DNA of 49,660 nucleotides from contig CALXLO010000006.1 of assembly GCA_944389235.1 (NCBI GenBank), positions 1-49,660 on the forward strand. Direction: 5' to 3'. This DNA is from an uncultured Alphaproteobacteria bacterium (GTDB lineage Bacteria > Pseudomonadota > Alphaproteobacteria > Rs-D84). A program made the translations under genes and the position numbers. Under the pieces are notes generated by a model that was not told the origin of the DNA, did not search any database, and saw nothing but the letters and a program-made list of their open reading frames with translations. Each line of letters starts with the position of its first letter. Position 1 is the first letter of the stretch. Positions 4,150-11,067 of the stretch are shown in pieces.

Positions 4150-4178
4150 AAATGGGGTTTATCCCCATTTTATTTTTT
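4149..4178 (+). terminator. Terminator after the acyl-CoA synthetase gene
   Basis: The AAATGGGG/CCCCATTT stem with a five-base loop is followed by TATTTTTTT. It overlaps the 3' end of the converging regulator gene. Confidence 0.85.
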
Positions 4179-4517
4179 TGTGATATTGTCTATCATCCAT
4201 ATAATGTTTTTTCTGTTTGAATTGGGCAAAGAATTTAATTTTATTATTATATCAGCTGTCTTTTTGTCTGTTATATAATCATTATCCAATTCATTAAAGA
4301 AACGCACAACTGGCACACCTATTGCATGCGCAATTTGACATAACCGCGACACAGAAATACGATTTGCAGCCGTTTCGTATTTTTGAACTTGTTGAAAAGT
4401 TATGCCAATTTTGTTTGCAACATCTTTTTGTGATAGTCCCATTTTTTCACGCATAACCCGTATCATTTGTCCGATACGAACATCTGTATCAGATGGTGCA
4501 AATTTTTTTCCAGACAT
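4170..4517 (-). CDS. Cro/CI-type helix-turn-helix regulator
   Basis: This 115-residue protein carries an XRE-type helix-turn-helix at about residues 14-70 (RIGQMIRVMREKMGLSQKDV, then GITFQQVQKYE). The 'TFQQVQKYE..ANRISVSRL' pattern is the one common in small alphaproteobacterial SinR-like regulators. No effector domain follows; the last 35 residues are polar. GGGGGGA precedes the ATG. A structured RNA with an intrinsic terminator ends only about 25 bases upstream of this gene on the same strand, so the regulator may be expressed by readthrough (inference). Its targets are unknown. Confidence 0.85.
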   Translation of the reverse strand: MSGKKFAPSDTDVRIGQMIRVMREKMGLSQKDVANKIGITFQQVQKYETAANRISVSRLCQIAHAIGVPVVRFFNELDNDYITDKKTADIIIKLNSLPNSNRKNIIWMIDNITKK

Positions 4518-4857: not shown

Positions 4858-6111
4858 TTATTTTTCAAATCGTTTAATTATTAAACTGGCGTTTGTACCA
4901 CCAAAACCAAACGAATTACTTAACGCGACATCAACCTTGCGCTGTTTCGCAACATTCGGCACCAGGTCAAAATCACCAACCTCTTCTTCTGGATTTTCCA
5001 AATTAATGGTCGGTGGAACAATGCCATCACGAATCGCCAAAACACAGAATATCGCCTCTACCCCACCGGCAGCACCCAACAAGTGCCCCGTCATAGATTT
5101 CGTTGACGACATTGATACATCTGTACCAGCGAACAAGGTCTTGACCGCTGCTAATTCACCCATATCACCCAATCCAGTTGATGTGCCATGTGCATTAATA
5201 TAATCAACATCACCCGGCTGCAAACCTGCATCTTTCAATGCAGACTGCATTGCGCGCATGCCGCCTTCGCCACCGGGGGCCGGGGCAGTAATATGATACG
5301 CATCACCCGACAGACCGTATCCGGCAACTTCGGCATAAATTTTAGCACCGCGTGCAATGGCATGTTCGTATTCTTCCAGAACCAATATGCCCGCACCTTC
5401 GGACATTACGAAACCATCGCGCCCCTTGTCCCATGGCCGTGATGCTGCCGCTGGGTCATCATTGCGTGTTGATAACGCCTTCATCGCACAGAAACCCGCG
5501 ACACCGATTTTACCAACCGCACCTTCGGAACCACCAGCAACCATAACATCTGCATCGCCATGTTGAATTAAACGCACAGCTTCGCCAATAGAATGCGCCG
5601 CTGATGCGCACGCCGTTACCACAGATAAATTCGGTCCCTGTAAACCGTATTTGATAGACACATGTCCCGCAGTCATGTTAATAATAGCCTTTGGAATAAA
5701 AAACGGACTGATATGACGCGGACCACTTGAATACAATTCAACACAGTTATCATATATTGTATTCAGTCCACCAATACCGGCACCAATCGATACCCCCATT
5801 CTGGTTTTATCACCATCATAATCTGCCAAACCGGCATCCCGCATTGCTTCATCTGCGGCAACAACGCCGTACAATATAGACTTGTCCATTTTGCGTTGTT
5901 CACGCGCATCTATGACAGAATCAGGATTATATTCACCCGGCGCAGTTCCAATAACTGGCAGCCCAGCAATTTGCGATGTTAAATCAGACGCGTCAAATGT
6001 ATCAATTTTACGCACCCCAGAAACACCGTTTATAATGTTTTTCCATGCGTATTCAATTCCTGTTCCAACCGGTGAAACAATACCCATACCGGTAATAACA
6101 ACTCTTTTCAT
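4858..6111 (-). CDS. fabF: 3-oxoacyl-[acyl-carrier-protein] synthase II
   Basis: FabF condenses malonyl-ACP with growing acyl-ACP in type II fatty-acid synthesis in the cytoplasm. The protein is full length (417 residues). It carries the active-site cysteine in VVTACASAAHSIGEA and the two histidines in NAHGTSTGLGD and KSMTGHLLGAAGG, giving an intact Cys-His-His triad, plus the glycine-rich C-terminal SNSFGFGGTNA. ATG 6111 is preferred over an in-frame TTG one codon earlier. It follows acpP at 130 bases, separated by a terminator-like hairpin, so the two are probably read together at different levels. Confidence 0.97.
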   Translation of the reverse strand: MKRVVITGMGIVSPVGTGIEYAWKNIINGVSGVRKIDTFDASDLTSQIAGLPVIGTAPGEYNPDSVIDAREQRKMDKSILYGVVAADEAMRDAGLADYDGDKTRMGVSIGAGIGGLNTIYDNCVELYSSGPRHISPFFIPKAIINMTAGHVSIKYGLQGPNLSVVTACASAAHSIGEAVRLIQHGDADVMVAGGSEGAVGKIGVAGFCAMKALSTRNDDPAAASRPWDKGRDGFVMSEGAGILVLEEYEHAIARGAKIYAEVAGYGLSGDAYHITAPAPGGEGGMRAMQSALKDAGLQPGDVDYINAHGTSTGLGDMGELAAVKTLFAGTDVSMSSTKSMTGHLLGAAGGVEAIFCVLAIRDGIVPPTINLENPEEEVGDFDLVPNVAKQRKVDVALSNSFGFGGTNASLIIKRFEK

Positions 6112-6177
6112 CAAACATATCCTTTATGTATTTTTACACAACGACAATATAATAAAACCTTTTGCGGCGCGCGTACA

Positions 6178-6247: not shown

Positions 6248-6481
6248 TTATTTTTTATGCGCATCAATATATTGAACAGCTTTGCCAACTGTATCTAATT
6301 TTGCGGCTTCTTCATCAGGAATATTGATATCAAACTTTTTTTCAACTTCCATAACAAATTCTACGACATCCAAAGAATCTGCGCCTAAATCATTAACGAA
6401 TGCAGAATCTTCTTTTACTTTTTCTTCTGGCACACCCAGTTTATCGGACACGATTTTTTTTACTTCTTCAAAAGTTGTCAT
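6248..6481 (-). CDS. acpP: Acyl carrier protein
   Basis: This 77-residue acidic protein is the carrier of fatty-acid synthesis intermediates. The 4'-phosphopantetheine attachment serine is in GADSLDVVEF. Length and the helix pattern match AcpP closely (start KKIVSDKLGV, end ...IDAHKK). AGGA precedes the ATG. It heads the acpP-fabF pair. A second, divergent ACP is encoded 1.6 kb upstream on the same strand. Confidence 0.98.
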   Translation of the reverse strand: MTTFEEVKKIVSDKLGVPEEKVKEDSAFVNDLGADSLDVVEFVMEVEKKFDINIPDEEAAKLDTVGKAVQYIDAHKK

Positions 6482-6568
6482 TTTTTATCCTTTATTTAGG
6501 TTAAATTTGTGGCCCAATCATGGGCGTCATTATTAAAAACTATCATTTTATGCCCCCAGTGTCAAGGA

Positions 6569-6599
6569 ATTATAACAAACGATAACAATCACTTGACAA
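6569..6599 (-). promoter_or_regulatory. Possible acpP promoter
   Basis: On the minus strand TTGTCA (6599-6594) and TATAAT (6574-6569) are 19 bases apart, slightly long. A separate TTGACA (6565-6560) lies just downstream with a weak -10. These sit between the integrase-like gene and acpP, so acpP need not depend on the upstream operon. Confidence 0.4.
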
Positions 6600-6618: not shown

Positions 6619-7617
6619 TCAATTCATTAATTCTGACAGCAGGTTGTTCATGTTAGTGCGTATTTCTTCGCGGTCAGATGCCCACACCAGCTGGCGCATC
6701 AGGAATTTATGCACATCGTCCATTGTCAAATTTTCAATCCCAGCAGCCATCGCAATTTTATGCCATGCGATGCGCGGGTCTGTTAAATGCCCCCGCCCCC
6801 GCCCCGGAAAAACCCAGCGACCATTTTGTGGTAAATCTTGTAATAAAACAGCTGCTGCATCAGACAACGGCCAATCACCCCATGTATAATGATTAAAATC
6901 TAAATCACGCCACTGCATTGCAAATACACGCGATTTCGGTGCAAACCCATATATCAACATTAAAAACGCTGCACGCAAATTTTGCGACGGTTCACGCCTA
7001 ATTGCACGCACCAATCTATGAAATCCTGTTTTATTTAATGGTCGCACCCGTCGTACCAGCTTTATTTTTTGCAAATCTGATACAGGATTTGTTTTCGCAT
7101 ACCCATTATCAATTGCGTATTTATATACGCTTTGTAATAAATCTTGCATACGACTGGCAATTGCGCGACCGTCAATATTATTAATAACTGTGGCAATATC
7201 ATCAGATGTAATATCTGTTATATTCTTGTCCAATAATGGCGACAAGTGCCGTCGAATAGCGCGTTCCAGTTTTTCACGCGACAAACTGTTGCGGCGAATA
7301 CGATTCGCAATATATATTTCAAAAAATTTTTTCAATGTTATTTTTTTATTGCGTCGCCGCGGTTTTTGTGCGGCACGCGCCAATATTTCTGGGACCGCAC
7401 TGCGCGCAGATTCAACATCAGTTTCCGGATAGTTTCCAATTATTATTCGTCTGTCGCGACCATGCACGCGTTTACGAACAAAAAATGTTTTGACACCGCG
7501 ACTGGTAATATACATGCGCAGTCGCGGTTCTGACATATCTTGGACAACATCAAACCCTGTTGCAGGCGTTGGCAAATTATCCAATATAAATGGATTAAAA
7601 AAGAATTGATGTGCCAT
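6619..7617 (-). CDS. Integrase-like protein lacking tyrosine-recombinase catalytic residues
   Basis: This 332-residue protein has the layout of a P4-type phage integrase. An N-terminal arm-binding domain (residues ~30-80, VRKRVHGRDRRIIIGNYPE) is followed by a core-binding domain (~95-190, TLKKFFEIYI) and a C-terminal domain. The catalytic domain is degenerate. The box I Arg position reads in GFAPKSRVFAMQW with no Arg/Glu pair at the expected spacing, the HxxR box is HKFL, and there is no tyrosine at all after FNHYTW, so the nucleophile is missing. It therefore cannot be a normal recombinase. The frame is intact, with GGGGGG upstream of the ATG and a 17-base gap to its neighbour, which suggests a retained DNA-binding role rather than decay (inference). 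Confidence 0.7.
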   Translation of the reverse strand: MAHQFFFNPFILDNLPTPATGFDVVQDMSEPRLRMYITSRGVKTFFVRKRVHGRDRRIIIGNYPETDVESARSAVPEILARAAQKPRRRNKKITLKKFFEIYIANRIRRNSLSREKLERAIRRHLSPLLDKNITDITSDDIATVINNIDGRAIASRMQDLLQSVYKYAIDNGYAKTNPVSDLQKIKLVRRVRPLNKTGFHRLVRAIRREPSQNLRAAFLMLIYGFAPKSRVFAMQWRDLDFNHYTWGDWPLSDAAAVLLQDLPQNGRWVFPGRGRGHLTDPRIAWHKIAMAAGIENLTMDDVHKFLMRQLVWASDREEIRTNMNNLLSELMN

Positions 7618-7634
7618 ATCGCCCCCCTGTTGTT

Positions 7635-8024
7635 TTAGTGTTGATTTATTTTATTGTTCCAGAAATTGCGTTGAGAATTAATTGCTGATTCATATCGCTT
7701 TAACACACTAAAAAATTCATTATTGCGTTGATGAAACGGACAAAATTCTTCGTTGCACGCACCATATATATTATTTGGATTAAAATTCTTGCAAAACGAA
7801 TCGTATGGCGCATTAATTAAATCAGTACGATATTCATGCCGTTTAACACATGCGCGTATATCATCTGGATTTTGACTTTTACCAATCCATCTAATCAAAG
7901 AATCGTATGTGCAGAATTTATCTAAACGCAAAGATGCACATTTATATTGCAGTGCACGCCATTCTATAAAATCTGCGCGCTGCTGCTTAATTGGCGTTGT
8001 TAAGATATATTGAATTTTTTTCAT
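7635..8024 (-). CDS. Small Cys-containing protein, paralog family member 3
   Basis: This 129-residue protein has no recognised domain. It belongs with the products at 8362-8739 and 8758-9174. All three begin with a similar block (here KKIQYILTTP, then ADFIEWRAL) and share a C-terminal motif: two Cys, then aromatic or His, two residues, NN, aromatic-F, an L-rich helix, and a final QR.F/YW (here CPFHQRNNEFF...SQRNFW). No signal peptide or membrane helix is seen. A GGA ribosome site precedes the ATG. It lies 15 bases from the second ACP and 17 from the integrase-like gene. The paired cysteines suggest a metal site or disulfide; the function is unknown. Confidence 0.7.
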   Translation of the reverse strand: MKKIQYILTTPIKQQRADFIEWRALQYKCASLRLDKFCTYDSLIRWIGKSQNPDDIRACVKRHEYRTDLINAPYDSFCKNFNPNNIYGACNEEFCPFHQRNNEFFSVLKRYESAINSQRNFWNNKINQH

Positions 8025-8039
8025 ATTTTTCCTGTTTAT

Positions 8040-8342
8040 TTATCTAGTTTTTTTGTTCATTAATGATGCCCGTAATCTATCCAGAAACACTGACTTGTTT
8101 CCCTTTTGTTCCAGGCGGTTCATATTAACATAGCGAACCATATCACCGACTGTTCTCATGCTCATAATCTGGTCATCAGAAAACACGATATTAAATTCTT
8201 TTTCAACATGACCAATTAATTCCATCTTGTCCAGACTATCCAATCCTAAATCATTATCAAAATCCGTCCCCAGTTTTATTGCATTGGCACGAAAATTAAA
8301 TAATTTTGATATAGAACCTTTTACTGTATTAAAGTTTTTCAT
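8040..8342 (-). CDS. Second acyl carrier protein-like protein
   Basis: This 100-residue protein contains an intact carrier-protein core with the phosphopantetheine serine in LGLDSLDKMEL and the usual helix III region (FSDDQIMSMRTVGDMV). It differs from AcpP 1.6 kb away by a basic, Lys/Arg-rich tail of about 25 residues (RLRASLMNKKTR) and low overall identity. AGAGGA precedes the ATG. It is embedded between members of a small Cys-protein family in a tight operon, with no synthase or ligase next to it. A specialised carrier such as AcpXL is possible but not shown by the context. Confidence 0.85.
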   Translation of the reverse strand: MKNFNTVKGSISKLFNFRANAIKLGTDFDNDLGLDSLDKMELIGHVEKEFNIVFSDDQIMSMRTVGDMVRYVNMNRLEQKGNKSVFLDRLRASLMNKKTR

Positions 8343-8361
8343 AATAAATCCTCTATTTTTA

Positions 8362-8739
8362 TTATCTGCAATTTGCGAATTTTTGTATCCAGTAAATATT
8401 GCGCTGTTTTTTCAATATATGCAGCATCCGTGATAAATCAAAGAATGCAACATTATTTTTATAATACTTGCATTGTGTTTTGGTGCATGGAACGCAATAA
8501 CTAAAATGTTCACAGCGTTCCAGACTGACACAAACCCCAGAATCATTATCACGACCAAAATCCGGCACCTGTGATATATATGTATAAAGACATCCATCAA
8601 ATCCAGCCGACAGCCGTTCGCGTGATATATCATACTTGTGCTTTGCATCTGACACTTTGGCACGCAAGTTTTTATATTCTGCAACATCTGCACGAATTGC
8701 GTGCAAAGGCGTTTTAACAATATACTTCAACATAGACAT
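8362..8739 (-). CDS. Small Cys-containing protein, paralog family member 2
   Basis: This 125-residue protein is related to its neighbours at 8758-9174 and 7635-8024. It opens LKYIVKTPLHAIRADVAEYK and carries the family motif near its end (CTKTQCKYYKNNVAFF, then KKQRNIYW). It has several more cysteines in the middle (GCLYTYI, GVCVSLERCEHFSYCVPC), suggesting a zinc site or disulfides. No signal peptide is seen. It lies 18 bases after family member 1 and 19 before the second ACP. An overlapping frame of 102 codons is a shadow. The function is unknown. Confidence 0.7.
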   Translation of the reverse strand: MSMLKYIVKTPLHAIRADVAEYKNLRAKVSDAKHKYDISRERLSAGFDGCLYTYISQVPDFGRDNDSGVCVSLERCEHFSYCVPCTKTQCKYYKNNVAFFDLSRMLHILKKQRNIYWIQKFANCR

Positions 8740-8757
8740 AATTTAATTACCCTTGAT

Positions 8758-9174
8758 TTACTTTACCCGACTGAATTTTTCCGCCCAGAATTTTGCGCGC
8801 TGATTTTTCAAATATTCATATTTTGATTTATTTTCAAAATAATCATTATTATGCTTGTAATACGAACATTTTTGCATATCACATGGCCACCAACTGGGCA
8901 CAAAATACGGACAATTTAATTTATATTCTTTTAATACATTAAATCCTGTTTCAAAGTCTAATTCTGGGTGCCACGATGTTTGAATACAACCACAATATTC
9001 CTTGGCACTGGGGACCAGACGAAAATCTTTACCAAAATTACATGTCATACGCGCACGCGACAAAAACATATTGCGTCGCGCAGATGCCGCGCATCGCCCC
9101 AATTTTCTAAATTCGGCAATATCAGACAATATATCGCCCCCAGATGTATTTAACAGATATTTCACAAAGGTCAT
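8758..9174 (-). CDS. Small Cys-containing protein, paralog family member 1
   Basis: This 138-residue protein is the longest of the three paralogs. The N-terminus (FVKYLLNT...DIAEFRKLGRCAASAR) and the C-terminal motif (CDMQKCSYYKHNNDYF, then KNQRAKFW) match the other two. The middle differs and contains CGCIQTSW and WWPC. It starts 17 bases past the lepA stop with AGGA before the ATG, so it is probably transcribed with lepA. I do not recognise the family and can assign no function. Confidence 0.7.
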   Translation of the reverse strand: MTFVKYLLNTSGGDILSDIAEFRKLGRCAASARRNMFLSRARMTCNFGKDFRLVPSAKEYCGCIQTSWHPELDFETGFNVLKEYKLNCPYFVPSWWPCDMQKCSYYKHNNDYFENKSKYEYLKNQRAKFWAEKFSRVK

Positions 9175-9191: not shown

Positions 9192-10988
9192 TTAATTTAC
9201 TTTTAATGCGTTAATAAATGCAGACTGTGGTATTTCTACATTACCAAATGTCCGCATTCGTTTTTTTCCCTCCTTTTGCTTCTCTAACAATTTACGCTTG
9301 CGCGTGATATCCCCCCCATAGCACTTTGCGGTTACATCTTTGCGATATGCCGCAATTGTTTCGCGTGCGATAATTTTACCACCGATTGCCGCCTGTAAAG
9401 GAATCTTGAATTGGTGCCGCGGAATTAAGTCTTTTAATTTTTCAACGATTTGTCGACCGCGTTTTTCTGCTGCACTGCGATGACACATAAACGACAAAGG
9501 TTCTACATTTTCATCATTAACCAGTATTGAAACCTTTACCAAATCAGATGCGCGATATCCTTGGACAACATAGTCAAATGACGCATACCCAGACGATAAC
9601 GATTTTACCCTGTCGTAAAAATCAAATACAATTTCTGCCAGTGGCAATTCATATACCAACACTGCGCGATTACCAACATAGGAAATATTTACCTGGATGC
9701 CCCGCCGTTCTGAACACAGCGACATTATTCCCCCCATATATTTATCAGGCATCATAATTGTTGCACGAACCCACGGTTCTTCGATAGATTCTATTTTGGT
9801 CAAATCTGGCATATCCGCGGGATTTTCTAAATCAATTACATTGCCATCGCGCAAATGAATTTTATATAACACGCTGGGGACAGTATTAATTAAATTCAAG
9901 TTAAATTCGCGACGCAACCGTTCACTGATAATTTCCATGTGCAACAGCCCTAAAAATCCGCATCGCAACCCAAACCCCAGCGCAGACGATTTTTCTGTTG
10001 TAAAAACAAACGATGCATCGTTTAGTGCCAACTTTTCCGCACTGTCGCGCAGATTAGGATAATCATCTGCAACAACCGGAAAGAACGACGAAAACACCAC
10101 CGGCACAGACGGTTTGAACCCAGGCAAAGGTTCACCACCATCCCCCAGTCGCGCATCTGTTATTGTATCGCCAACCTTGCAGTCATGAATTGTTTTCATA
10201 CCGGTTATAATAAACCCAATTTCACCGGTCCCCAGTATATCAGTATCAACCATTTTTGGCGTAAAGTATCCGATTTTTTCAATCGTATATTCTGCTGCGG
10301 TTGCCATAAATCTGATTTTTTGCCCGCGCTTTAATTGCCCATCAACCACGCGCACCAATATCACAACCCCTAAATAAGAATCATACCAAGAATCAACCAG
10401 CAACGCACGCGTCGGTGCGTTTTCATCCCCCCGTGGCGACGGCAGACGATGTACAATTTCTTCCAGCAAATCAGGCACCCCTGCCCCAGTTTTACCAGAA
10501 ACACAAATTGCATCATGCGCATCCAGTCCGATAACATCTGCGATTTGTTCACGCGTTGCATCAACATCGCTGGACGGTAAATCTATTTTATTTAACACTG
10601 GCAACATTTCTAAATCGTTATCCAATGCCAAGTACGCATTTGCCAATGTTTGCGCCTGGACCCCTTGGGTTGCATCAACCAAAATCAGCGCACCTTCACA
10701 TGCCGCCAAACTGCGTGAAACTTCATAAGAGAAATCAACATGCCCTGGGGTATCCATTAAATTTAATTGATATTCCACCCCATCACGCGCACGATAATTC
10801 AGCCGCACAGTCTGGGCCTTTATCGTAATTCCGCGTTCGCGTTCAATATCCATAGAATCCAGGACTTGCGCCTTCATTTCGCGCGATTGCAAACCACCCG
10901 TATATTCAATTAAACGGTCTGACAGTGTTGACTTTCCATGGTCAATATGCGCAACGATTGCAAAGTTTCTGATGTTCTTTTGATTCAT
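9192..10988 (-). CDS. lepA: Elongation factor 4 (LepA), ribosomal GTPase
   Basis: LepA is a translational GTPase that acts on stalled or assembling ribosomes. The product (598 residues) is full length. G1 AHIDHGKST lies at the N-terminus, RGITIKAQ (G2) and DTPGHVDF (G3) follow, and NKIDLPSSD (G4) lies near residue 130. The EF-G-like domains and the LepA-specific C-terminal domain ([20 protein letters not shown]) come after. ATG 10988 is used; the longer frame starts with TTG. It follows rbfA by about 80 bases on the same strand and is followed by five close-set accessory genes. Confidence 0.97.
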
Positions 10989-11067
10989 ACCCAAGACCGT
11001 ATATTATGCGGCAATGATACACCAGTATATTTTAATTGCAATCAATTTTTATAAAAAAATCTGCAAA

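Follow-up and report, generated by a model that had tools for sequence, protein, structure and literature searches.

Tyrosine integrases of the P4/lambda type (PF13356 and PF22022; lambda Int, 1z1b; the HPI and HAI7 integrases) consist of an arm-type, a core-binding, and a catalytic domain. Recombinase relatives that lack the catalytic residues are also known, such as the XerD-like protein encoded beside scpA in streptococci. Our literature search for tyrosine recombinases that had been exapted or had lost catalysis retrieved only TnsF of the Tn6022-type transposons, an inactive tyrosine recombinase with N-terminal zinc fingers that is used in DNA targeting (PMC10293859). The protein studied here, which we call INT, shares with the P4/lambda-type integrases their domain order, sequence matches, and fold, but its catalytic residues are all lost, the Lys hairpin and the Tyr segment are deleted, and, instead of a mobile-element context, it has a fixed position behind lepA, mostly before acpP, where it is vertically inherited. 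Like TnsF, it is a catalytically inactive tyrosine recombinase that has been kept; however, TnsF carries zinc fingers at its N terminus and acts in transposition with TniQ, whereas INT begins with an arm-type domain, without any zinc-finger Pfam match, and belongs to a predicted lepA operon. With the streptococcal XerD-like protein it has in common the absence of catalytic residues and a fixed place beside housekeeping genes, but that protein is of the Xer type without an arm domain, and its neighbors and phylum differ.

The window, by which we mean the whole stretch of 49,660 nt that was analyzed, belongs to an 823-kb genome in 22 contigs whose named relatives include many uncultured Alphaproteobacteria from the guts of animals as well as Candidatus Enterousia species. 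In the GTDB, Candidatus Enterousia is placed in Rs-D84 at the ranks of both order and family, and its genomes are reduced (PMC12306168); the host is a gut alphaproteobacterium of this type, with a reduced genome and belonging to the order Rs-D84. All sequence data are metagenome assemblies, and the E values of the genome searches are given per genome. Along the minus strand, the genes follow the order lepA, CP1, CP2, ACP2, CP3, INT, acpP, and fabF (Table 1). A preliminary description of this DNA had reported five closely spaced genes behind lepA, each with its own ribosome site, and this is what we found: the five frames from CP1 to INT are all open, the successive gaps from the end of lepA (position 9192) through INT measure 17, 18, 19, 15, and 17 bp, and a purine-rich stretch resembling a ribosome-binding site lies at each of the five starts. 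The spacing between INT and acpP is 137 bp. A gene for an XRE-type helix-turn-helix regulator is situated behind fabF (window positions 4170 to 4517, minus strand).

Table 1. Features of the lepA-fabF region, with positions in the window
Feature	Position	Strand	Basis
lepA (elongation factor 4), upstream flank	9192..10994	-	600-aa ORF; upstream of the slot in 98/101 INT loci
CP1, 138-aa four-Cys protein of a new family	8758..9174	-	ORF, family profile, AlphaFold2 model
CP2, 125-aa paralog of CP1	8362..8739	-	ORF, family profile
ACP2, 100-aa second acyl carrier protein	8040..8342	-	PF00550
CP3, 129-aa paralog of CP1 and CP2	7635..8024	-	ORF, family profile
INT, 332-aa dead lambda/P4-type tyrosine integrase, family-wide core gene	6619..7617	-	Domain matches, alignments
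Direct-repeat box TTGTTAT-N3-TTGTTAT before the acpP -35	6568..6589	-	Conserved in nearly all loci of the genus
acpP promoter -35 TTGACA, followed by -10-like TGATAGTTT	6560..6565	-	Sequence and alignment
acpP, housekeeping acyl carrier protein, downstream flank	6248..6481	-	TIGR00517 above cut-off; behind INT in 98/101 loci
fabF	4858..6114	-	PF00109 and PF02801

According to our census of 101 distinct INT loci, acpP lies directly behind INT in 98, lepA is within reach upstream in 98 as well, and nearly all related species show the order lepA-[CP]n-INT-acpP-fabF. An INT match was obtained in 57 of the 59 genomes of the genus, 55 of these matches being close (54 to 79% identity over nearly the full length), and in 179 of the 201 genomes of the order, a count that takes in a few distant ordinary integrases, for example, in families f2 and f4; high-scoring copies occur in nearly all genera of family f1. 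Other f1 genera encode a full-length INT, in most of the genera read directly behind lepA and usually with acpP-fabF next to it, while genus g22 retains lepA-INT with no acpP behind INT. The tested genomes of the same genus without INT have no clear acpP either, and we dropped this joint absence as functional evidence: four of them keep lpxA, which needs acyl-ACP, so that an unassembled segment is likelier than a true loss, and the absence of INT from these genomes is probably an assembly gap. The preliminary description would have judged the grouping accidental if the homologs never occurred together; they recur in conserved order in many species, far beyond chance, and its view that gene order and intact frames reflect selection is supported. 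INT is a core gene of the whole bacterial family and is inherited vertically, and its distances correlate with those of LepA (r = 0.78), as expected of such inheritance.

INT matches Phage_int_M, Arm-DNA-bind_3, and Phage_int_SAM_3, the scores for PF13356 (30.0 bits), PF22022 (36.6 bits), and PF14659 (24.6 bits) all exceeding their cut-offs. An alignment of INT against five full-length integrases from its order showed that none of the catalytic elements (ArgI, Lys hairpin, HxxR, and Tyr box) has survived, each being either substituted or deleted. TGQR is replaced by YGFA and HDLRR by DDVHK or NDIYK, the Lys hairpin is absent, and a deletion has removed the GH and Tyr boxes but spared the last helix, a configuration common to all f1 members aligned. 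Among 53 sequences of the genus, position 226 (ArgI) is Ala, Val, Leu, or Thr and never Arg, position 300 (His) is always Asp, and position 303 (ArgII) is Tyr, His, or Asn. Since all dead members share the same deletions, the alignments point to a single inactivation event in the ancestry of INT. For close genome pairs, deeper ones being saturated, dN/dS of INT is 0.04 to 0.15 as against 0.02 to 0.06 for lepA in the same pairs, i.e., about two to three times the lepA value. INT is therefore catalytically dead, as had been proposed, yet under purifying selection; the "dead integrase" of the preliminary description is a conserved and probably domesticated gene, not a decaying relic. Invariant positions amount to 39 of 84 in the arm domain, 15 of 96 in the core-binding domain, and 36 of 142 in the pseudo-catalytic domain, so the arm domain is the best-conserved part, with the invariant basic residues R34, K43, R48, R50, R57, and R72; the net charge of the protein is +22. 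In Foldseek searches, the structural model (mean pLDDT 82.4; pTM 0.48, the arrangement of the domains therefore being uncertain) matched DNA-bound lambda Int (1z1b, E value of 1.4e-7) and the arm domains of the HPI and HAI7 integrases. The phage and plasmid matches shown were ordinary integrases with 22 to 26% identity.

CP1, CP2, and CP3 were rightly described as paralogs, since a single profile recovers all three (E values of 1e-31 to 1e-38) and they share four invariant Cys residues. Of the tested ORFs that separate lepA from INT in the loci retrieved, all but three belong to this one family, with four near-invariant Cys residues. The CPs are a new family without relatives in the libraries searched: no credible match was found in Pfam, NCBIfam, PHROGs, PADLOC, or solved folds, and fold searches with the AlphaFold2 model of CP1, in which a beta hairpin is set between two long helices (mean pLDDT 90.8), returned nothing significant. 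The four conserved Cys residues probably form a zinc knuckle. The CP mean net charge is +9. Viral contigs contained relatives neither of INT nor of CP, the scan for the latter using CP1 alone because the alignment behind the CP profile was too variable, and a viral origin of either was set aside on these grounds. Within their own genome the CPs occur at this place only. Elsewhere, genera g25, g27, and g28 have diverged CPs in front of INT, whereas g18, g24, and g29 have none there. Across 98 loci, CP is absent from 17, and the remaining 81 have at least one copy (one in 42, two in 19, three in 14, four in 5, and five in 1). CP ortholog pairs gave dN/dS values of 0.15, 0.22, and 0.5, and the family evolves faster than INT. 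In genus g28 the slot has received another insertion, a NUDIX-like ORF that separates the CP gene from INT (L197:3080-3598).

ACP2 matches PF00550 (50.8 bits against a cut-off of 20.8; E value of 2e-13), with an intact serine in its DSL motif (DSLD) and a basic C-terminal tail, and it scores 55.9 bits against TIGR00517, the equivalog of the housekeeping AcpP, below the cut-off of 70.45. It is present in 3 of the 101 loci, namely, the window and two other species (L290 and L298). Both of these show the slot order CP1-CP2-ACP2-CP3-INT, one of them with a doubled ACP: the ortholog at L298:2978-3608 has 209 aa and two ACP domains, with DSLD in both. An order of paralogs, ACP, and integrase does recur in these species, but the five genes are no fixed system, given that CP number varies from none to five and ACP2 is rare. 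The link to acyl chains that the ACP had suggested is weak; what stays constant as a neighbor is acpP-fabF, an ordinary gene pair with a promoter of its own.

We consider it likely that INT is a domesticated, noncatalytic, sequence-specific DNA-binding protein produced from the lepA transcript, with the CP slot beside it. When family Rs-D84 arose, its ancestor would have had an active P4/lambda-type tyrosine integrase established downstream of lepA, which would then have lost catalysis by remodeling, through loss of ArgI, deletion of the Lys hairpin, replacement of His by Asp or Asn, loss of ArgII, and deletion of the Tyr box. The arm-type domain that binds DNA, the core-binding domain, and the C-terminal helix would have been kept, as would a catalytic domain of reduced size. 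The present protein would have an architectural or regulatory role on specific DNA sequences; we infer its DNA binding, as well as zinc binding by the CPs and cotranscription from lepA to INT. A dead recombinase could instead act through protein contacts alone. The slot between lepA and INT would tolerate insertions: small, basic, four-Cys helical hairpins of a fast-evolving family would have multiplied there, and in a few species an ACP paralog would have been added. With catalysis lost, the DNA-binding parts kept, and the gene fixed in about a dozen genera, INT is a clear case from nature of an integrase that became a cellular protein, and it raises a tractable question, what it binds, in an uncultured lineage with reduced genomes, while the CPs define a new protein family. 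More speculative, and in our opinion improbable, is the extension that in this gut family with reduced genomes the domesticated integrase serves in the nucleoid or in regulation, its DNA site or its partners being determined by a diversifying family of four-Cys adaptors from the same transcript.

The variable slot admits other explanations. CP and INT might form one complex, in which the CPs act as zinc-knuckle adaptors that alter the DNA target or the oligomeric state of INT: the CPs stand directly before INT in four genera and nowhere else in their own genome, both proteins are basic, and in TnsF a single chain carries zinc fingers together with a dead tyrosine recombinase (PMC10293859). Because 17 of 98 loci and several genera have INT but no CP, we hold such a complex to be rather unlikely. 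Still less probable is a selfish or defense-like island, in which INT would be what is left of a mobile element, and CP proteins its cargo or an arms-race system. The variable copy number and faster evolution of CP, and a fixed slot that has also received ACP2 and the NUDIX-like ORF, would agree with such an island, but purifying selection acts on INT and its inheritance is vertical, the CPs have no relatives in PADLOC, PHROGs, or viral contigs, and several genera retain INT without CP.

Equally doubtful is the proposal that INT activates acpP and lpxA through TTGTTAT repeats at the -35 and in this way links the operon to the acyl-ACP supply. The acpP promoter beside INT carries TTTGTTAT-NN-TTTGTTATAATT against the -35 in nearly all loci of the genus, although the table of box positions comprises only loci selected for TTGACA and GTTA and its frequencies are slightly favorable; in the window, the box is a direct repeat with a 10-bp period, 30 bp behind the INT stop. 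Sites of arm-type integrases are often direct repeats. The only other site within two mismatches in the same genome precedes lpxA (L224; C3:77170-77191 on its own contig, minus strand), and the box was present before lpxA in all promoters read in the genus (g1) and in most other f1 genera. However, families f4 and f6, in which no INT was detected beside acpP, carry the variant TTGTAATATTTTGTAATAT (GTAAT-N5-GTAAT) before lpxA, and in genus g23 INT adjoins acpP without a clear box. Furthermore, a CenR-like response regulator and a histidine kinase are encoded in the host's own genome (C3:52172-54117; L379:12172-14117). The winged-helix DNA-binding domain of this regulator is shortened, as it is in genus g28, and its altered recognition region, likewise shared with that genus, is in step with the altered box; it falls below the cut-off of PF00486 (Trans_reg_C) and is therefore easily missed in annotation. 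Regulators with PF00486 were detected in 8 of 9 genomes outside f1 and in none above the cut-off within f1. The response regulator was sought in selected loci and in about half of the host's own genome. From the variant box in families without INT and the CenR-like pair, we infer that the box is probably a response-regulator site outside the INT module, and INT is disfavored as its owner. The sole strongly conserved noncoding element adjacent to INT is hence better explained by another protein, and no DNA site for INT was found. At the promoters that it activates in Rhodobacter, CenR uses a direct repeat that is spaced at 10 bp and precedes the -35 (PMC9275681). The resemblance, which concerns the promoter box only, extends to the position and spacing of the repeat, the cell-envelope genes, and an OmpR-family regulator with its kinase, but the half-site here is GTTAT and not TGA, and the DNA-binding domain of the present regulator is shortened. 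At a distance of 5 to 8 kb from acpP there is a third, less common copy of the box (L233, L234, L237, and L238). Its neighbors are mltG and, on the other side, an outer-membrane-type gene (both names being our own reading of the sequences), and it is on the strand opposite to both, where it could drive an antisense or small RNA.
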